Source: Planctomycetota bacterium
GTDB lineage: Bacteria; Planctomycetota; Phycisphaerae; UBA1845
Length of the DNA: 33,062 nucleotides
NCBI GenBank assembly: GCA_013151185.1
Contig: JAADIU010000098.1
Span: 1-33,062 of the forward strand
Direction of reading: 5' to 3'
Shown: positions 6,972-21,050 of the stretch, piece by piece
Position numbering within the stretch: the stretch's first letter is position 1
How the letters are laid out: each line of letters starts with the position of its first letter
Program-made: the position numbers and the translations under genes
The notes under the pieces: generated by a model
The model's database searches: none
What the model was told of the DNA's origin: nothing
The model's input: only the letters and a program-made list of their open reading frames with translations

Positions 6972-8369
6972 TCAGGCGTTTGCGTCGCGTTGCATGCCAA
7001 GTTTGTCGAGACGGTGTCGCAAACTGCCGCGTGACAATCCAAGAACGCGGGCGGTTTCGGAGATGTTCCCCTGTGTGTGGGCGAGAGCGGCTTGGATGAG
7101 GCGACGCTCGACGGACTCCACGGTTGCATCTCCGGACTCAAAATCGAACGGTGACGCGGGTCCACATTGCGTTGGTGTTGCGGGGCTTGCCAGAAGATTC
7201 AGCGCCTCGGCGGTAATGGTCGTCCCGTCGGCGAGCAGCGCGGTGCGTTGGATGACGTTGCTGACTTCGCGTACGTTGCCCGGCCAATGGTAGGTGCGCA
7301 GGGCGGTCACTGCGTCGTCGGAAAAAACGAGGTGCGGTTTGCGAAACTTCAGCCGGAACCGATCGAGGAAATGATCGGCAAGCAAAATGATATCGTCTCC
7401 TCGGTCTCGAAGAGGCGGAACGTGCAAGCAAAAAACTTTCAGTCGATAGAACAAGTCGGCGCGGAATTCACCTTTTTCGATCTTGCCTTCGAGGTCGCTG
7501 TTGGTAGCCGCCATCACCCTTGAGCGCGTGACACGCTCGGTGGTTCCACCAAGGCGTCGAAAGCGCCCGCTCTCGATTGCTACGAGCAATTTCGATTGCG
7601 TGGCGAGCGGCATGTCGCCGATTTCATCCAGGAAAAGCGTGCCCTCTTCGGCGACTTCAAAGAGGCCTTTCTTCGCGGATTTGGCGTGCGTGAAGGCACC
7701 GGCTTCGTGGCCGAACAATTCAGACTCAAACAAACTTTCGGGTACGGCGGTGCAATTGACGTGGACAAATGGGCGATTGGCGGAAGCACCTCGGTGGTGA
7801 ATGTATCGGGCCAGCGCTTCCTTGCCCGTGCCCGTATCACCGAGCAACAGAACTGTGGGCAACATACCATCCTGATCCAATGGCAGCGATCCGATTTTGT
7901 CGGCGATGGCGAGCAGCTCGCGCATGGCCCCGCAGTCGCCGATGACGTGTGCGTTTTGCGATTCGCGCTGTTGCGCCTCGCGGTAGGCATCGAGTTGATT
8001 GCGGATGCTTCTGTTTTCAAGGCACCGTTCGACCGAAAGCACAACCTCATCCATCGACAGCGGTTTCTGGATGTAGTCAACCGCACCCTGCTGCATCGCC
8101 GCAACGGCGCTTGCGATCGTTCCAAAACCGGTGATGACGATGACGGGCGTGTCGATGCCTTCGGCGCGCAGCTTCCCGAGAAGCTCCAAACCGTTCGTAT
8201 CGGGCAGGTTGACATCGACAAAGATCAGGTCGGGTAGCTTTGATCGCGCGGAAGCCAGCCCGCGCTCGCCCACATTCTCGACGCGGCAAGTGTGCCCGGC
8301 GCGCTTGAGCGCAAGCTGCATGGAGATGCCCAGGTTTTCTTCGTCGTCGATGACGAGAATGTCGGCCAT
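6972..8369 (-). CDS. NtrC-family sigma-54-dependent response regulator
   Basis: The 465-residue protein has the three classic parts. A receiver domain (1-120) contains acidic residues D8/D9, phospho-acceptor D52 (IFVDVNLPDTNG), T80 and K102. A central AAA+ domain contains Walker A GDTGTGKE (177-184), the sigma-54 contact loop GAFTHA (224-229), Walker B GTLFLDEIGDM (243-253) and an R-finger region FRADLFYRL. A Fis-type helix-turn-helix closes the protein (NISETARVLGLSRGSLRHRL). It should activate sigma-54 promoters once phosphorylated. The contact loop is GAFTHA, not the usual GAFTGA, which is notable because the replaced glycine lies in the loop that touches sigma-54. It follows its histidine kinase by three bases in the same operon. 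Its target genes cannot be named, but the upstream pseudopilin and EF-hand protein are natural candidates. Confidence 0.95.
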   Translation of the reverse strand: MADILVIDDEENLGISMQLALKRAGHTCRVENVGERGLASARSKLPDLIFVDVNLPDTNGLELLGKLRAEGIDTPVIVITGFGTIASAVAAMQQGAVDYIQKPLSMDEVVLSVERCLENRSIRNQLDAYREAQQRESQNAHVIGDCGAMRELLAIADKIGSLPLDQDGMLPTVLLLGDTGTGKEALARYIHHRGASANRPFVHVNCTAVPESLFESELFGHEAGAFTHAKSAKKGLFEVAEEGTLFLDEIGDMPLATQSKLLVAIESGRFRRLGGTTERVTRSRVMAATNSDLEGKIEKGEFRADLFYRLKVFCLHVPPLRDRGDDIILLADHFLDRFRLKFRKPHLVFSDDAVTALRTYHWPGNVREVSNVIQRTALLADGTTITAEALNLLASPATPTQCGPASPFDFESGDATVESVERRLIQAALAHTQGNISETARVLGLSRGSLRHRLDKLGMQRDANA

Positions 8370-8372
8370 GCT

Positions 8373-9770
8373 CTATTGTTCCTCCGTTGCGCGACCGGGC
8401 ATGATGGCTTCAAATCGGCTGCCGGATCCAAGTGTCGATTCGCAGTGGATGCTCCCACCGTGCGTATGAATGACCTTCGCCACCATCGGCAGCCCCAAAC
8501 CGCTTCCCTCTGCCCGAGTGGTGAAGTCGGGGAGAAATATCTTGCCTTTCAAATCGTCGGGAATACCCGAGCCCTCGTCCTCAACAACAACGCACCATTG
8601 ATCCGCATGGTCCCGATCCGGGGTGACACGAATGCGGACGGTCTGATTCTTTTGGGAAGCTTGCACCGCATTCGTGATCAATGCAACCAGCGCTTGCTCA
8701 AAATGAAATCCGTCGACTACCGCGTATCGCGCGACGGGATCGATCATCGCGACAATATGCACACCAACGCGGTCGGCCATCGGAACCAATACGTTGCAGA
8801 CATTTTCGACCAACTCGGCCAGATCGGTGCGCTGCGGATCGATGTTCATGGGTTCGACGGCATGTTGCAAGTCGCGAAGCCACTGCTCCAACCGATCGAT
8901 GGCTTTGATGATTCTGTGTTGGTATTCGTCGATGTCTTCCGCGCTGACGTCTTGACGGCGCGTGGCTTCTGCCAATCCGCGGATGCCAGCCAATGGGTTG
9001 CGTGTGTTGTGGGCGATGCGGCGGAACATCTCGCCAGCCGCTGCCTGCCGCTCCTGCTCGATCAGCTTTGCCTGCATGTCGACAATCGTCGCCGACATCT
9101 GGTTGACTTCGCCCGCCAACTTGCCCAGTTCGTCTGCCGACCGGGGTTCAATTCGGTAGTCGAAGTGGCCTTCCGCAATCTGTTGGGTGGCGACGCGCAG
9201 ACCGGCGACGGGCACCAAGACCCAGCGGCGCACCAGCACCAAGCCAGCCACGCACAACGCGGCACCCACGATGGCGTTGTAGATCAATATTTTGACGACC
9301 CGCTGCTGAGTTCTCGCTGCATGGTCGATGGCATCGCGGCGATTCGTGGTAATCAGCGCGCTGATCTGGCCCAACAGCGAATCGCAATTGCGCAATAGTT
9401 CTGCCGGGAGGCGGGGCGAACTTGCAGCCAGTGCATCTGAAAGGTTTCGCCAGAGAACCGTTTCGTTTGGGTCGGAAGTCGCGATAGATTCATCGATGAG
9501 GCGAGTGGCAACCGCTGCACGGAGGGGGGCCAATGTCGACGCGGGAAGCGTTGCCGTCTGACCGGGTTTCTGAAACTCATACCGCGTTCTTGCGACCTGA
9601 ATCGGAACCCTTAGCCGCTCAATTTCTGTCTGACGCACGAACGAAGATTGCACGTCGATAAACGCGGATTGAAAATACACGACGATGCACCAACCCGACA
9701 TGATGAGGTTGGCCGACAGCGAGAGCACATAGATCAACGCCAGCACACCGAATTTGTGTCGCAGTTTCAT
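8373..9770 (-). CDS. Membrane sensor histidine kinase (NtrB/HAMP type)
   Basis: The 465-residue protein has an N-terminal membrane helix (8-32), an extracytoplasmic helical sensor of about 125 residues, a second membrane helix (159-180), a HAMP linker (RRWVLVPVAGLRVATQQIAEG onward), a dimerisation domain with H-box RIAHNTRNPLAGIRG (H254), and an ATPase domain with N-box ALVALITNAVQAS, G1 DEGSGIP, F-box KIFLPDFTT and G2 GSGLGLPMV. The NP residues after the histidine fit NtrB-like kinases paired with NtrC regulators, and the next gene is such a regulator. The sensor helices contain many predicted coil residues and no known ligand domain, so the signal is unknown. The gene starts 48 bases after the pseudopilin stop, so the four genes are probably one transcript. 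Confidence 0.93.
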   Translation of the reverse strand: MKLRHKFGVLALIYVLSLSANLIMSGWCIVVYFQSAFIDVQSSFVRQTEIERLRVPIQVARTRYEFQKPGQTATLPASTLAPLRAAVATRLIDESIATSDPNETVLWRNLSDALAASSPRLPAELLRNCDSLLGQISALITTNRRDAIDHAARTQQRVVKILIYNAIVGAALCVAGLVLVRRWVLVPVAGLRVATQQIAEGHFDYRIEPRSADELGKLAGEVNQMSATIVDMQAKLIEQERQAAAGEMFRRIAHNTRNPLAGIRGLAEATRRQDVSAEDIDEYQHRIIKAIDRLEQWLRDLQHAVEPMNIDPQRTDLAELVENVCNVLVPMADRVGVHIVAMIDPVARYAVVDGFHFEQALVALITNAVQASQKNQTVRIRVTPDRDHADQWCVVVEDEGSGIPDDLKGKIFLPDFTTRAEGSGLGLPMVAKVIHTHGGSIHCESTLGSGSRFEAIMPGRATEEQ

Positions 9771-9818: not shown

Positions 9819-10637
9819 CTATTCATTTTCATCGGGCGGTGGTTGATATGCCCAATCCCAACCCGGAGCCGTCGCAGGATTGCGGGAACTCCAGACGTGT
9901 CCGCCAATGAATGCGGCATGAACCTGGCCGGCATGTCGCCCGGCTGGAAACCAAAATTTTCCGGAAGTGTACAAGCCACTCTGCGCGGCGGGCGGTGTCG
10001 AGTAGAACGGTACGAGCGGTTGCGGTCGATTTTGGGCGCTCATTCCATCGACATCAAAAGCCAACGGAGTCCACGGGTGATTCAGAATTCTTGGGGATAG
10101 GGTTACACTGCGCAAACTGTCAAGTTGAATTGTACCGTAGTTGATTTTGATATTACCCATGTGCAGCCGCATGTTGAAACCAATGCTCACATTTTCAAGT
10201 GGCAAGATCGAGAGTTCGGCGGGTTGGATCGTGCCATCGTGGCCGAGTCCGCGCGGCCCAGCCGGGCAAATCAACGGTTGCTTGCGTGCCTCGAAAGTAA
10301 CCTTGTTGACCTGAGTGGCGTCACCTTTGATGAATTCCTCGGTTCCATAGAGGCTGTCTTGAAAATCTTCAAGACGAAACCGGTTGCCACCCAGCCGGTT
10401 GCTTTCGCGGCCCCGATCTCCGTGGGCATAGTCATCTGCAAACATCTGAAATGCCTGGGCAACGCCCTGTAACTTATTTTTGCAGAGCACGCTCTTGGCT
10501 GAGTTTCGTACACTGCTCAACGTCGTGAGTAGGATACTCATGAGGGTACTCATGATGGCCACGACAACGAGCAATTCCACCAGCGTCAGCGCCGGGCGTG
10601 CGCGCGTGCTTCGGGTTGTCGTCAGTCGGCGTCTCAA
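9819..10637 (-). CDS. Type II secretion/pilus-like pseudopilin with planctomycete C-terminal tail
   Basis: The 272-residue protein has a short basic leader (RRRLTTTRSTRARPA) followed by the prepilin N-methylation site ALTLVELLVVVAIMSTLMSILL, with the conserved glutamate at position +5 (E21). This should be cleaved and methylated by a prepilin peptidase and then form a membrane-anchored helix. The rest is a globular domain with two or three cysteines (SVLCKNK, LICPAG). The C-terminus has GRHAGQVHAAFIGGHVWSS, the H-x-G...GGHV pattern of the many DUF1559-type and related planctomycete pseudopilins. The start codon is TTG, whose last bases overlap the TGA stop of the upstream gene (TTGA), a sign of translational coupling. 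Another start inside the leader is impossible without losing the basic region. Its role may be in a pilus, in secretion or in the cell surface. Confidence 0.88.
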   Translation of the reverse strand: MRRRLTTTRSTRARPALTLVELLVVVAIMSTLMSILLTTLSSVRNSAKSVLCKNKLQGVAQAFQMFADDYAHGDRGRESNRLGGNRFRLEDFQDSLYGTEEFIKGDATQVNKVTFEARKQPLICPAGPRGLGHDGTIQPAELSILPLENVSIGFNMRLHMGNIKINYGTIQLDSLRSVTLSPRILNHPWTPLAFDVDGMSAQNRPQPLVPFYSTPPAAQSGLYTSGKFWFPAGRHAGQVHAAFIGGHVWSSRNPATAPGWDWAYQPPPDENE

Positions 10638-12196
10638 GGCACAAGCCCCATATTCGGCACCACGAACATGATGTTTCCGGGCCCGCCCATCGAACCACCG
10701 AACAGTTCGATCTCTGCCGGTGTGACGTTGCCATCACCGTTCGTATCGATTTCGTCGCACTCGGCTGGAATGGGCGTTCCACCGCCCGATTCGACGCACC
10801 GCTGAATGATGGCGAAGTCGACCAGATCCAGATCGCCGTCATGGTCCACGTCATACAACGCGGTGGTATTGACTCCCGGTGGGCGATCATCGGAATTCAC
10901 CAAGCCGTCATAGTTGGCGTCGTGAACGTCAAACCCATCGCCAAAGTTGATGATTGTCAGTGTGCCATCTACCACGCCGTCCGCATCGCAAGCGCCGCCA
11001 TCTTCCGCAGACAGAAACGCGTCGAACATCTCCACGTCTTCCGTGTCAACCACCGCGTCACCGTTGTAGTCGCGCTTCAGCAGGTTTGGTGCGATATCTG
11101 CCCATGCCAAACCGGGCACGAGCGTGCCGGGATCCACAAACACGCTGATGAGCATCACGTTAACATCCCACAATGCGGGATTCAGGTAGTCGTTGGGTAT
11201 CAGGAATTCCCATCCTTCAATCAAAGGATAGTTCACGTCGGACCGATCCACGATCGTTGCGAATTGCGTGCTGAGCACGACGTGGTCCATGGCTTCGCGG
11301 ATGCTGTTCTGGTTGTCGGCGCAACAATCCGGTGCCTCGGGTACCGAGTCGGACATGGCGGCAGAGCCGTTCAGCGTGAGGGGGTAAACGAGTGACACGG
11401 TTGTTCGATCGAACTCGATGGAATGCGAAAACAGCAAGTCGACTTGTGGCGTGTAGGTGGGCAGGCCATTCGAGCAGCACACCAGAATGAAGTCGTCAAA
11501 ACCGTGGGCGCGGTTCAAGAATGGTCCGCGAACGGTCCACACTTCGCCCGGCTCGAACAGAGAGTTGCCGTTGCTCCCGACATCGAACGACGTGACCGAG
11601 CCCCACAAGAATGCGAGATCGAATTCTTCACCACTCCGCTCCGGAAAGTATGGCCCGGTGCTGATGTCAGCGTCAAATGATCCGAGGCAGGAGTCGAGCG
11701 CCATTTTTCCAGAGAAGCGGCTTGCTTGGGGAACCCCGCCAAAGCGCGCGCCAGCCCCTTGATATCGAAACTGTGGACCGAGCAATTCGCCGCCGGTCAA
11801 TTCATTGGCGTCGATATCGAATTCGATAAACCCGAGCAGGGGGTTGTCGCCGAAGAAGAAGATGTTCGTTGGAAAATCCAGACCGGGTGGGTTCACAAGT
11901 CCCTTGAATACCAAGTCCAATCGAAAGAAGTCGGCAGGGGCAGCCGTCCACTGCCCACGAAACAAGGCGTCCGCAGCGTCGTTCGGTGTCCATGCGCCGA
12001 TCTCATAACGGATCAAATCGAGGCGGGGTGCATCGGGCAGGTTGACGGGGCTGCCGTCGAATCGAAGTAGACGTGCATCGCCCGCGCCGTCGAAGTATTT
12101 CTTGGGGACATCCGCCCCGCGCGTGGGTTGTCCCGCGCCGAACAAAACGATTGCACACCCCACAACCGCGCATACTTGCCTCAATGAAATTCCCAT
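10634..12196 (-). CDS. Secreted protein with repeated dockerin-like EF-hand loops
   Basis: The 520-residue protein has a clear signal peptide (VCAVVGCAIVLFGAGQPTRGAD). Residues 30-380 form an unrecognised domain that reads like a beta-rich secreted domain, with several cysteine pairs (LDSCLG, LVCCSNG, PDCCADN). From about residue 385 come at least four calcium-type EF-hand loops: DYNGDAVVDTEDVEMF, DANYDGLVNSDD, DVDHDGDLDLVDFAII and DTNGDGNVTPAEIELF. Such dockerin-like loops are typical of planctomycete extracellular proteins and usually bind calcium or mediate attachment. No catalytic motif is recognised. It is the first gene of an operon with a pseudopilin and a two-component system, which suggests it is a surface or secreted partner of that apparatus. 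The start has a modest GAAAGAG just before the ATG, and signal-peptide position supports it. Confidence 0.8.
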   Translation of the reverse strand: MGISLRQVCAVVGCAIVLFGAGQPTRGADVPKKYFDGAGDARLLRFDGSPVNLPDAPRLDLIRYEIGAWTPNDAADALFRGQWTAAPADFFRLDLVFKGLVNPPGLDFPTNIFFFGDNPLLGFIEFDIDANELTGGELLGPQFRYQGAGARFGGVPQASRFSGKMALDSCLGSFDADISTGPYFPERSGEEFDLAFLWGSVTSFDVGSNGNSLFEPGEVWTVRGPFLNRAHGFDDFILVCCSNGLPTYTPQVDLLFSHSIEFDRTTVSLVYPLTLNGSAAMSDSVPEAPDCCADNQNSIREAMDHVVLSTQFATIVDRSDVNYPLIEGWEFLIPNDYLNPALWDVNVMLISVFVDPGTLVPGLAWADIAPNLLKRDYNGDAVVDTEDVEMFDAFLSAEDGGACDADGVVDGTLTIINFGDGFDVHDANYDGLVNSDDRPPGVNTTALYDVDHDGDLDLVDFAIIQRCVESGGGTPIPAECDEIDTNGDGNVTPAEIELFGGSMGGPGNIMFVVPNMGLVP

Positions 12197-12498: not shown

Positions 12499-13701
12499 TT
12501 ATCGGCCAAGGAAATCGCGTAACCGTCGCAGATCTGAAATGGTGATCGAACCGCGCTTGGCGATGTGTGTCCCGTCCGGTTTGACTGCGATGAACGCGGG
12601 GGCGCGGTCGACGTCGTATTGCCGCATGGCTTCTCCGACGAGCGGATCAGATGCACTTGCTCGACAGTTGACGGTGTCTTTGAAGAGATTTCTGGCACCT
12701 TGCGTATCCAGCAAACGGGCCATCCGCATTGATGTTTCATCCGAGGGTGCCTCGTAGAAAATAAAAAGCCCTCGACTTTCACGTTGCGCGCGGATGCGGG
12801 CTGCGTCGTGTCCTCGCTGCCATTTGAGGGGTGTGGGTACCCTGGTTTGCGTCGACCCGGACGTGCGATGTTGAGCACCTCTTGATCCTCCGACTGGAGG
12901 TTGTTGCCCGCGGTTTGAGGCCATCGCCGACGACAGGAACCCGACGATATCGCGCACACTCCCCAGCCCTTCGCGTTTCTGGAAGGAGCCATTTTGATGC
13001 ACAACGATGATCGCGGGGAATTTCGTCACGCCATATTGAGCGACGTGTTTTCGGTTGGGCGTGTAATCCCAGTCGAGAACACAATTGATCGTCTCGGTAC
13101 AGTGTGCGGCGATCTCAGGCCGGCTCATGCGCGTGATCATCTCGTTGGAGTTTGCGTCGAGCCACCATTTGTAAAGGATCATCATCTTTCTGTTTTGGCG
13201 CCGGGCGCGTTCTCTGGCCCGCTCAAACGTGCCCTCTGCGCGAATCAGATAGTCGGTGGGGCGGGGGATGGCCCGGTTGACGTTTGGCTTTTGCCCCGGC
13301 GGTTTCGCGTTTGACAGGAACGCTCTGATTTGAACAGCATCCGACACGTCTGCAAGCGCATGGTACGTCCCATCAGGATGAATCACGATGAGCGCCGGCG
13401 GTGATGTCACCCCATACTGTGCAACGAACTTACGATTCGGATCGTATGCCGAGATCAGCGAACAGGCGACGTATCCTTCCAGAAGGGCCATCGTTTCGGG
13501 TTGTTCGAGAACCTCGCGGATGCGCGCCGAAGCAACGTCGAGGTGGTCGCGATAGAAAACCAGGATGGGCCTTTCTTTCGGGCGTGCGATGCGCTCGGCT
13601 TCGTTGAATGTGTAAACCCAAGCGGGACCGCAAGCCGCCGCCGAAAACATGAGCAGCGCGCATGAACCGACGAAAGCCATTCGAGCGAGTCTTCGCCGCA
13701 T
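12499..13701 (-). CDS. Triple thioredoxin-fold protein lacking CxxC (DxxS in each domain), probable lipoprotein
   Basis: The ORF track starts at 13806, but the methionine at 13701 is the likely start. It is preceded by GAAAGGG and begins MRRRLARMAFVGSCALLMFSAAAC, a signal with a possible lipobox cysteine at 24. The 400-residue product then repeats one thioredoxin-like unit three times (about 30-135, 155-262 and 295-400). Each has the strand before the active site (ILVFYRDHLDVAS, MILYKWWLDANS, LFIFYEAPSDETS) and a later cis-proline strand (VTSPPALIVIHPDGTY, VTKFPAIIVVHQNGSF, VDRAPAFIAVKPDGTH). Where thioredoxin has CxxC all three have DxxS (DVAS, DANS, DETS), so disulfide redox chemistry at that site is not expected. 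It may act as a chaperone or binding scaffold. The function is unknown. It sits next to an exported redoxin gene but is separated from it by a hairpin. Confidence 0.8.
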   Translation of the reverse strand: MRRRLARMAFVGSCALLMFSAAACGPAWVYTFNEAERIARPKERPILVFYRDHLDVASARIREVLEQPETMALLEGYVACSLISAYDPNRKFVAQYGVTSPPALIVIHPDGTYHALADVSDAVQIRAFLSNAKPPGQKPNVNRAIPRPTDYLIRAEGTFERARERARRQNRKMMILYKWWLDANSNEMITRMSRPEIAAHCTETINCVLDWDYTPNRKHVAQYGVTKFPAIIVVHQNGSFQKREGLGSVRDIVGFLSSAMASNRGQQPPVGGSRGAQHRTSGSTQTRVPTPLKWQRGHDAARIRAQRESRGLFIFYEAPSDETSMRMARLLDTQGARNLFKDTVNCRASASDPLVGEAMRQYDVDRAPAFIAVKPDGTHIAKRGSITISDLRRLRDFLGR

Positions 13702-13942
13702 GAGCCCTTTCAGCCGAATAATTTTAGAAGGGAACGCATTGCCCAAGGGATGTCTCAAACCTTCATGCTTGCTTTCGGGGTCGAATGGGAATCCGTGCCC
13801 ATCCATCCTACGCGGGCCGCAAGTCTAAACGCGCGTCCAGCCAACCGCAACTACCATGCGCAACAACTACAAAGGAATGGGCAGCCACTCCCCTCCATGG
13901 GAGCGACTGCCCAAGTGTAGCCAACATTAGCGCAGGCTGAAA
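13702..13942. terminator. Stem-loop terminator downstream of the redoxin gene
   Basis: At 13878-13913 an imperfect hairpin TGGGCAG-CCA-CTCCC ... GGGAG-CGA-CTGCCCA lies 30 bases beyond the leftward redoxin stop. Read leftward it is followed by a weakly T-rich TTCCTTTGTAGTTGTTG. It probably ends the redoxin transcript. The remainder of the spacer holds the start region of the triple-thioredoxin gene, where TAAAAT lies about 20 bases before the chosen start and could be its -10 box. Confidence 0.55.
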
Positions 13943-14575
13943 TCAGCCCGCGTACTTCACACCGCAACCGTACGGTTTGGTGGAAGCGACTTCGACCGTC
14001 GAGCCTGCGAGGGCAGCTTCGACGGCTTTGGCGACGTAGTTCGTCGCGTCTTTCTTCGCCCCGTGCGGGTTGTCATCGATGGCACCGGAATAGACGAGCG
14101 CGCCTTTCTTGTCGACGACATACATGTGGGGGGTGGTCTTCGCACCATAGGCGCGGCCGACTTTGCCGTCGGCATCGCGAAGGACAGCGTAAGGCAGCTT
14201 GACGCCATCGCTGTTTTTCCATTCGCGGATCATGTCTTCCGTGTACCCGTCCTTGTGGTCTGGCTTGGTGCTGTCGATGGCCAACCACACGACGTCCTTG
14301 CCTTTGAAGGAAGCAAACGTTTTCTGCATGGTTTGTTCCTTCTTTTGGTGGCGAGCAACAACAGGGCAGGTGCAGCAGGTCCATTCCAAGACCACGACCT
14401 TGCCTTTGTAGTCGGAGAGCTTGTGCTCTTTGCCGTCTACATCTTTGAGGGAAAACTCGGGTGCGGCTTTTCCGAGTTCGGCATGGGCATGATCATGTTT
14501 GTCACCGGCGCTTGCCATTTGTGCGAAGGTCAATCCGACGAGGACCGACAGTCCCAACGTGAGTGATTTCTTCAT
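13943..14575 (-). CDS. Exported thioredoxin-like/peroxiredoxin (redoxin) protein
   Basis: The true start is the methionine at 14575 (GGAGAACCCTATC before the ATG, and MKKSLTLGLSVLVGLTFAQMASAG as signal peptide), not the upstream start in the ORF track. The mature part of the 210-residue protein is an AhpC/TSA or redoxin fold: APEFSLKDVDGKEHKLSDYKGKVVVLEW, active site TCCTCPVVARH (C67, C68, C70), DSTKPD, and a cis-proline KTTPHMYVVDKKG (P149). The C-terminus ends in YGCGVKY (C204), a possible resolving cysteine. This is an extracytoplasmic thiol protein of the type that reduces peroxides or disulfides. It resembles planctomycete proteins whose active site is usually NxDCPF. Here the site has three near-adjacent cysteines, which could bind metal or form unusual disulfides. 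It stands alone, with a terminator after it. Confidence 0.85.
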   Translation of the reverse strand: MKKSLTLGLSVLVGLTFAQMASAGDKHDHAHAELGKAAPEFSLKDVDGKEHKLSDYKGKVVVLEWTCCTCPVVARHQKKEQTMQKTFASFKGKDVVWLAIDSTKPDHKDGYTEDMIREWKNSDGVKLPYAVLRDADGKVGRAYGAKTTPHMYVVDKKGALVYSGAIDDNPHGAKKDATNYVAKAVEAALAGSTVEVASTKPYGCGVKYAG

Positions 14576-18623: not shown

Positions 18624-21050
18624 TCACGGCAGGCGCGTCTGACCGGCTGAGTCCTTTGGGAATCGGTGCAGATTCCTGAGGTACTCAACGGACAGCGCAA
18701 GAATCGCCGCTGCCCCGGTGGATGCGCCTGCAATGGTCCAATTTGCGAAATGCCTCGCCGACGGGATAAACATCGTGATCGCGCAGCCAAGCGTGATCGC
18801 AGTCATGATCCCGACGGTGGTGAGGTATGCGCGACGTGTTCGACATCCGCCGCGGCCTGCGATGAGCCGCGCGGTGAGGCAGCCGACGATGGCCATCCCG
18901 ACGATGATCGAGTACGCCCCAATGGGCAACCAGTGTCTTCGGTTCACCGAACGACTCGAAATCAGTCCGCGGATTGCATCGCCCAGGAGGTATCCGCCCG
19001 GAACGTTCCTGATAATGCCTTCATCGTACTTGACCGTGTGGAGGTCGCGCTTGACACCGGGAAATGGGCTTGGGGGTCGCAGGTCGATGCACAAAACGAT
19101 TTTACCCGCAACCAAATCCCAAAGTTCGGTTTCGGACCTGCGCAGCACTGCCTCATAGGCGATCGTTCTTGATTCCTGCGTTTGCAGTGGCGTCAGGTCA
19201 AACGTTTTTGTTGCGGGGATGTCGCCGGGGCGGCTTGACGCACGGCCGTCCCGCATCGCCGGCAATGTCTTGACTTGGATTCGGTCGATGCCTTTGATGT
19301 ATGCCTTCGTGCCTCGCTCCCGGTGTTGGACGGTGAGCGCATCGTCACCCGGATTCCAGGTTACCTCATTTCGCAGTCGCGGGTAGCACACCGCACCGAG
19401 CATCGCCAACGCAAGCGAAGGCAGGCTTTGCTCGCCGCGTCGGGTCACGATGACGAACTCACCAGGCCGCTCGACCATGTCACGCGCCATGATCAAGCCG
19501 TGATGGACGATTTCGCTGAGCGGATCGTAGATGTCCGGGCTGATTTTCGGGATGCCAGCCGCGGAATAGTCGATGGCGGCGAGGGCCACGGGGACGCCAG
19601 CTCGGTCGAGCGCCAAGATGCCTTCGACCAATTCGGGATCACCCCGCTGGCGCGATCGAAAGTAGTAGTCCCACACCACGGCTTTCGGTTTTGCCTTGGC
19701 CAAACGTCTCATGAGTCGGCCATGGACTGCCCGCCATGTACGAATCGAGCCCGTTACATCTGGAATTCCGTTCGTCCGCGCGAATTCTATGACATTTTTT
19801 GCCGTGTCATCACCAACGCCGACAAACACGAAGTCTGTGGGGCCTTGGGTGGCGCTCGACTTGAGCAATGTTGTGCGCGCGTCGGTGCTGTGGTCGTCGG
19901 AGAGTATGCCAAAGTCGATGCCGAGCAGGAACGTTCCGGAACTGATCGCAAACAGGACGCCCGCGACGATGAGCATCCAGACGGCTGTGCGCGAGCGCAG
20001 CATGATCCCGATGGCGATGCGCTGCAAGCGATAAAAAAGCGGCAACGGTTTTGTTTTGATGGCGCTTTCGTTGCAAAGGTTGGCGATGTCGTCGCCCAAC
20101 TGGCGCGCGGACGAAATTCTTCGATGCGACTCCGGTGCAAGGCAGCGCGAAATCAGCGTGGTGAGTCCGCGCGCGTCGGACACGGGCGGTTTTTTTGGCA
20201 CCTCGTGTTGGATGCGATGCAGCAGCGAGTCGCCGGCGTTCTTGCCTTCGATCGGTTCGAGGTTGTACGGGTAGTCACCGTCCGTTGCGATTTCGAAGAG
20301 CATGACCCCGAGTGCCCAGATGTCGCTGGTGTGGTCGATGCGCATCATGCCACCCCAGGATTGTTCGGGTGACATGTATTTGACGGTGCCCATGATTCGG
20401 CCAAGTTGCGTTTGCGTGCGGCGGATACGCGTGGCCCAATCGTCGGATTGAACTGCGGACAAGCCAAAATCAACCAAATGGGGTTGACCGCGATCATCGA
20501 CGAGCAGATGCCTCGGTGTTAAATCGCGATGCACGACACCCTGTTCGTGAACGGCGGCGACCACTTTGCACGCGCGTTCAAAGACGCAGAGTTTACTTTC
20601 AAGCGAGGTTGTGTTTTTGTCCAGGTACTCGTCGAGTGGAATGCCACCCAGCATTTCCATCGCCAAATAATGCGACCCACCCGAATGCCCGGAGTCGAGA
20701 TAGCGTGCTACGTTCGGGCAGTCGAGCGCCTTGAGAATTGCGATTTCGCGTTCGACGAAGCGAAGCGTTTCCTGGTCGGCAGCATGTCGAAGCACCTTGA
20801 GCGCCACCCATTGGGGGGATTTCCCAAAACGCATCGCCTGATACACAACACCGGAACTTCCGTGCCCAAGTCGTCCGCAACAAAGGTATTCCGCGACAAC
20901 GGGAAACTCGCCACCGGGCCAATGTTCGCGCACCATCTTTGACGTGCAGCCGTCGTTCGCCAACTCATCTGCGAAGCGCAAAAGTGCATCGTCATCGGAG
21001 TGACCCGACAAGAGCAATGACACAAAGCGCTGGACGTTCGCGGTGTTCAT
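18624..21050 (-). CDS. Ser/Thr protein kinase with CHASE2 sensor domain and C-terminal membrane helices
   Basis: The 808-residue protein has a cytoplasmic Hanks-type kinase domain (about 53-330): glycine loop GRLGHGSSGVVYQA, VALKVL (K85), HRD at 174-176, DFG at 194-196, and SPEQ with WGGMMRIDHTSDIWALGVMLFEI. The catalytic loop reads HRDLTPRHLL; the usual loop lysine is threonine and the metal-binding asparagine is histidine. A membrane helix (about 357-380) leads to a CHASE2-like extracytoplasmic domain (FVFVGVGDDTAKNVIEF, KPKAVVWDYYF, AGVPVALAAI). Three C-terminal helices follow (around 700-720, 733-755 and 765-790). This kinase-TM-CHASE2-3TM layout is a known planctomycete and cyanobacterial sensor design. 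It diverges from an ECF sigma gene, the frequent ECF-kinase pairing of planctomycetes. The ligand is unknown, and catalytic activity is uncertain. Confidence 0.92.
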   Translation of the reverse strand: MNTANVQRFVSLLLSGHSDDDALLRFADELANDGCTSKMVREHWPGGEFPVVAEYLCCGRLGHGSSGVVYQAMRFGKSPQWVALKVLRHAADQETLRFVEREIAILKALDCPNVARYLDSGHSGGSHYLAMEMLGGIPLDEYLDKNTTSLESKLCVFERACKVVAAVHEQGVVHRDLTPRHLLVDDRGQPHLVDFGLSAVQSDDWATRIRRTQTQLGRIMGTVKYMSPEQSWGGMMRIDHTSDIWALGVMLFEIATDGDYPYNLEPIEGKNAGDSLLHRIQHEVPKKPPVSDARGLTTLISRCLAPESHRRISSARQLGDDIANLCNESAIKTKPLPLFYRLQRIAIGIMLRSRTAVWMLIVAGVLFAISSGTFLLGIDFGILSDDHSTDARTTLLKSSATQGPTDFVFVGVGDDTAKNVIEFARTNGIPDVTGSIRTWRAVHGRLMRRLAKAKPKAVVWDYYFRSRQRGDPELVEGILALDRAGVPVALAAIDYSAAGIPKISPDIYDPLSEIVHHGLIMARDMVERPGEFVIVTRRGEQSLPSLALAMLGAVCYPRLRNEVTWNPGDDALTVQHRERGTKAYIKGIDRIQVKTLPAMRDGRASSRPGDIPATKTFDLTPLQTQESRTIAYEAVLRRSETELWDLVAGKIVLCIDLRPPSPFPGVKRDLHTVKYDEGIIRNVPGGYLLGDAIRGLISSRSVNRRHWLPIGAYSIIVGMAIVGCLTARLIAGRGGCRTRRAYLTTVGIMTAITLGCAITMFIPSARHFANWTIAGASTGAAAILALSVEYLRNLHRFPKDSAGQTRLP

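Follow-up and report, generated by a model that had tools for sequence, protein, structure and literature searches.

A family of probable planctomycete lipoproteins with tandem thioredoxin folds, in which the D-x-x-S that replaces CxxC most likely stabilises a helix and spread by duplication

The window, which is the whole stretch of DNA analysed (33,062 nucleotides of contig JAADIU010000098.1 of a Planctomycetota bacterium), contains a reverse-strand gene encoding a protein with three thioredoxin-like repeats. The features of this gene and of the region directly upstream are as follows.

12499..13701 (-): gene of the three-domain thioredoxin-fold protein, a probable lipoprotein, 400 aa, ATG at 13701
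13630..13701 (-): signal peptide with lipobox-like SAAAC, residues 1-24, candidate lipidated Cys24 (sequence inspection)
13297..13626 (-): domain 1, residues 26-135 (Pfam, profile, alignment)
13528..13539 (-): DVAS, residues 55-58, CxxC position of domain 1 (alignment)
13462..13464 (-): Cys80, strand 3 of domain 1, invariant in clade A (alignment)
12919..13254 (-): domain 2, residues 150-261 (profile, alignment, AlphaFold2 pLDDT 89.2)
13147..13158 (-): DANS, residues 182-185, domain 2; modelled as N-cap (D) and N3 (S) of helix 2 (alignment, AlphaFold2, Foldseek)
13081..13083 (-): Cys207, strand 3 of domain 2, invariant in clade A (alignment, AlphaFold2)
12502..12831 (-): domain 3, residues 291-400 (profile, alignment)
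12730..12741 (-): DETS, residues 321-324, CxxC position of domain 3 (alignment)
12664..12666 (-): Cys346, strand 3 of domain 3, invariant in clade A (alignment)
13943..14575 (-): exported redoxin of the AhpC/TSA type (Pfam AhpC-TSA, 4.9e-20)
13878..13913 (-): terminator-like hairpin between the redoxin and lipoprotein genes (consensus match only)

The N-terminus of the redoxin is rich in His (HDHAHAE), and its C-terminus carries YGCGVKY; in the genus, it also has a CCxC motif. The same strand (-) also encodes a 520-aa protein with a C-terminal dockerin type I domain (10634-12196), adjoined by a short gene with a prepilin-type methylation motif (9819-10637), an NtrC-type sigma-54 response regulator and histidine kinase pair (6972-9770), and a Ser/Thr protein kinase domain fused with a CHASE2 sensor domain, which is conserved in the genus (18624-21050).

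The three repeats comprise about 110 residues each; one linker is short, and the other is longer and rich in Ser, Gly and Pro. Domain 1 matches Thioredoxin_7 (PF13899, 8.7e-07) and is the sole domain above the Pfam cutoff, with weak thioredoxin matches in the remainder of the protein; the NCBIfam search of the 400-aa protein gave no match. A single profile detects all three domains, and a search with the profile of the three repeats identified nine further proteins with three domains and 20 with two. As the thioredoxin fold is indicated for domain 1 by Pfam, for domain 2 by AlphaFold2 and Foldseek and for domain 3 by the profile, the original prediction of three tandem thioredoxin folds is borne out. 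The signal peptide ends with MFSAAAC-GP, with Ala at position -3 of the box, and inspection of orthologues revealed similar lipobox-like ends (STAC, SVGC, CVGC, CTAC). Judging by these sequences, the protein appears to be exported, as had been proposed, and is probably lipid-anchored and facing the periplasm.

The position of D-x-x-S relative to CxxC was assessed using a family profile of 15 domains (the window protein and four same-genus orthologues). Its alignment with 2LST places D and S on the two cysteines of CPYC without gaps (E 5.8e-04), and a CGPC relative (L051) gives the same gapless register, with D on the first Cys. These two alignments ruled out a register shift, which a DsbD loop seemingly one residue shorter could suggest. 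In the AlphaFold2 model of domain 2, obtained with the 15-domain alignment (pLDDT 89.2, pTM 0.83), helix 2 begins one residue after D, and S is the third helix residue. Thus, the alignments and the domain 2 model, together with its Foldseek matches, agree with the placement of D and S at the CxxC positions that had been predicted. The register of domains 1 and 3 comes from alignment alone, domain 2 being the only one modelled well; the full-length model from the single sequence (pLDDT 54.7) was too poor to use.

The Foldseek search with the domain 2 model returned DsbD-gamma and 2LST at TM 0.75, and further matches included thioredoxins, AGR2, the UAS domain of UBX7 and PDILT b'. The closest folds include domains without a standard CxxC, namely AGR2, PDILT b' and UBX7 UAS. 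The window protein resembles Thioredoxin_7/DsbD-gamma-like domains (PF13899; PDB 2LST, 2FWF) both in fold and, as regards domain 1, in sequence, but its CxxC is replaced and three copies are present in one lipoprotein. AGR2/AGR3 and b/b' domains of the PDI type are likewise non-classical thioredoxin folds used for protein binding, but they are eukaryotic proteins of the endoplasmic reticulum with no close sequence relation; AGR2 retains one active-site Cys. Calsequestrin is composed of three tandem thioredoxin folds without CxxC, but it is strongly acidic and binds calcium, whereas the window protein is basic (predicted pI 9.85, charge about +16.5), and the lack of an acidic surface that this charge implies rules out a calsequestrin-like role.

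A match to the thioredoxin-like protein was found in 49 of 60 related genomes. Among the related genomes searched, tandem forms were found only in two families of the order (f1 and f2), where orthologues occur across genera, and the other families of the order possess single-domain lipoprotein-like relatives. In a wider sample of the class, 15 of 150 genomes contain matches, all within the order that holds UBA1845 (Phycisphaerae). Many f1 and f2 loci have ribBA, often with pgsA, downstream, and dnaK lies upstream in three (identified by sequence reading); these housekeeping neighbours point to vertical descent more than to function, and it seems that the tandem protein was inherited vertically within the order. 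A close same-genus orthologue (L035) is located on a 379-kb contig (JANQQE010000030.1) titled Alphaproteobacteria bacterium, which is probably a mislabelled MAG.

The tandem homologues comprise clade A (19 proteins, 48 domains) and clade B (14 two-domain proteins, 28 domains). Alignment found no CxxC, the mark of an active oxidoreductase at the start of helix 2, in any of them, which makes thioredoxin redox chemistry impossible. Meanwhile, the cis-proline before strand 4, rightly noticed earlier in all three domains, is present in 48/48 domains of clade A and 28/28 of clade B. The coding sequences are also constrained. In comparisons with the window gene by NG86, where some dS values are saturated, domains 1 and 2 gave dN of 0.11-0.13 with dS above 1, and domain 3 gave dN of 0.32-0.36 with dS about 1.7-2.2. 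Loss of CxxC and the behaviour of domain 3, whose rate of change is about threefold that of domains 1 and 2 and which is missing from many relatives, could be taken as signs of a decaying, functionless gene. This is extremely improbable, as dN is far below dS in every domain, reading frames are open in nearly all homologues, and the cis-proline persists in 76/76 tandem domains. It is therefore very likely that these redox-dead folds are under selection, and the part of the original prediction that concerned a selected non-redox role is supported by the absence of CxxC, by the dN and dS values and by orthologues in genera of two families.

The conservation of D and S themselves is less uniform. 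Position 1 of clade A is D in 15 of 19 copies of domain 1 (N, E, S and A occur once each), in nine of 19 copies of domain 2 (with S 6, N 2, Q 1, G 1) and in five of ten copies of domain 3 (with S 4, V 1); most domain-3 copies from outside the genus and several domain-2 copies have Ser here. Position 4 is Ser in 44/48 domains (18/19, 16/19 and 10/10 for domains 1, 2 and 3), and two of the four other residues are Cys, which also occupies this position in several single-domain relatives. Only four of five same-genus genomes and four two-domain relatives have DxxS in all domains of the protein; domain 1 of the fifth genome reads NVRS, and the pattern does not extend to the whole family. In clade B, Pro predominates at position 1 of domain 1, where position 4 is mixed; in domain 2, positions 1 and 4 are S/T and Trp, respectively. 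As read from the alignment, clade B, which appears to be derived, keeps the protein though the D/S pair is gone from most of its domains. Accordingly, the expected conservation of DxxS among homologues holds for position 4 in most of clade A and fails at position 1, where D, S and N alternate, and in clade B; to this extent, homologues carry arbitrary residues at these positions. In the clade B proteins (L021-L032, L053, L054), a different conserved replacement takes the place of CxxC, with motifs of the Pro-Gly type in domain 1 and [ST]xDW in domain 2.

The residues found at position 1 are informative. D, N, S and T account for 76% of this position in 92 domains against a background of 19.5%, and for 12% and 26% of the two adjacent columns, though they also reach 40-49% in columns -3, +2 and +4. 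From this composition we infer a helix N-cap. The CxxC at a helix start has been described as an NCapC-N3C pair, and the catalogue of polar pairs includes NCapD-N3S (PMC4515027). Since the domain 2 model has D as the N-cap and S as N3, the simplest reading, and a likely one, is that DxxS is a remnant of helix capping, where D, S or N at position 1 and S at position 4 would hold the start of helix 2. An N-cap role accounts for the alternation of D, S and N, although the Ser of position 4 in clade A is stricter than capping alone requires. This strictness, along with the identical D and S in all three domains of four of the five same-genus proteins, could instead reflect a selected functional motif present in three copies, such as a metal or ligand site or an unusual catalytic centre. 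Such a motif is very improbable: position 1 is free among D, S, N, E and Q, clade B lost the pair and kept the protein, and no conserved His or acidic partner was found among columns conserved at 70% or more.

Domain trees point to tandem duplication. They were built without the motif columns; their root is assumed (one CxxC outgroup) and many forks are unresolved, with domain-1 and domain-3 groups supported and single-domain relatives outside them in a basal position. DSDS and NEDS occur among the single-domain relatives, and outer branches (L002, L043, L049, L056, L115) carry NxxC, DxxC and SxxC, a pattern suggesting loss of the first cysteine before replacement of the second by Ser. Clade B adjoins L016 and L019, which retain DxxS in domain 1. 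On these sequences, the simplest history is that the tandem ancestor already had [DSN]xxS, duplication copied the motif, and clade B lost it; the tree and the single-domain DSDS relatives rule out three independent conversions to DxxS. The identical change in three copies had been taken as a sign of selection for DxxS, and this argument does not stand, given the single-domain DSDS and NEDS relatives, the tandem duplication, Ser at position 1 and the loss in clade B. Rather than a new active site, the repeated D-x-x-S is most likely a replacement that stabilises the helix and was copied along with the domains. The genome of the window (L002/L050, G000:C324) and another genome (L049, G002:C8) also encode, at a conserved locus, a second, single-domain thioredoxin-like lipoprotein with NSEC or DSQC, which keeps only the second active-site Cys.

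Apart from the cis-proline, only one residue is invariant across the 48 domains of clade A, a Cys of strand 3 that the original prediction had left unmentioned. It is found in 48/48 domains of clade A, 20/28 of clade B and 1/16 of single-domain relatives; the Cys that f4 relatives have close to strand 3 is offset by one in the alignment and is not counted as homologous. This distribution would fit a protein that is still thiol-active through one strand-3 Cys per domain, a chaperedoxin-like thiol adaptor possibly acting with the neighbouring redoxin. A precedent is CnoX (YbbN) of E. coli, a holdase with SxxC that uses another Cys of its thioredoxin domain (PMC8129009). CnoX is alike in its thioredoxin fold, altered CxxC and extra Cys elsewhere in the domain (PMC8129009), but it is cytoplasmic, combines one thioredoxin domain with a TPR part and has the extra Cys at a different place. 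Holdase activity and the passing of clients on to GroEL/DnaK further define CnoX chaperedoxins. Pfam found only thioredoxin-type matches and no TPR repeats in the 400-aa protein. Moreover, the strand-3 Cys lies in the central strand, aligned with Ala of 2LST, and is probably buried, judging by the alignment, whereas Cys63 of CnoX is surface-exposed; a structural role is therefore more likely than a thiol role.

The neighbourhood of the redoxin bears on the thiol adaptor as well. The window and four same-genus genomes, as well as other genomes of f1 and f2, have the redoxin gene directly upstream of the lipoprotein gene. In f5 and f4, the redoxin gene adjoins the single-domain relative or lies close to it, giving four families of the order in all. 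However, nine f1 genomes contain the tandem protein with no detectable redoxin (some of these assemblies are incomplete), and terminator-like hairpins separate the two genes in several relatives as in the window, which also weakens the case for a redoxin-lipoprotein operon. Overall, the thiol adaptor is quite unlikely. A fuller version is about as unlikely: one invariant strand-3 thiol per domain would have replaced the CxxC chemistry, and the protein would be a membrane-anchored, multi-site thiol adaptor or chaperedoxin serving envelope proteins, with the exported redoxin as its historical partner.

It could also be supposed that the protein is a structural or scaffolding envelope lipoprotein without client binding. 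The strong basic charge, the lipobox and the flexible Pro/Ser/Gly linker suit a spacer associated with the wall or membrane, but the cis-Pro groove and the domain cores are conserved beyond the needs of a spacer, and this explanation is unlikely. By analogy with the non-catalytic b/b' domains of PDI and the thioredoxin domain of the SxxC chaperedoxin CnoX, tandem folds with a retained cis-Pro groove may bind other envelope proteins, and the chances of such a putative holdase or adaptor role seem about even.

The best explanation as a whole, with a probability of roughly 50%, is that a Thioredoxin_7/DsbD-gamma-like domain first lost CxxC and later multiplied to two and three copies by duplication, yielding probably lipid-anchored, non-redox, helix-capped folds that would bind proteins. 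What is new is the family, as non-redox thioredoxin folds used for binding are already known and no new chemistry is involved. NCBIfam has no name for the family, its Pfam matches are generic fold matches only, and a literature search for such a planctomycete family gave nothing relevant. Within one order, a graded series can be followed from the CxxC outgroup through N/D/SxxC, single-domain DxxS, two domains and three domains to motif loss, and it illustrates how a redox fold turns into a non-redox tandem module. It also indicates that a motif repeated across tandem copies need not imply repeated selection.
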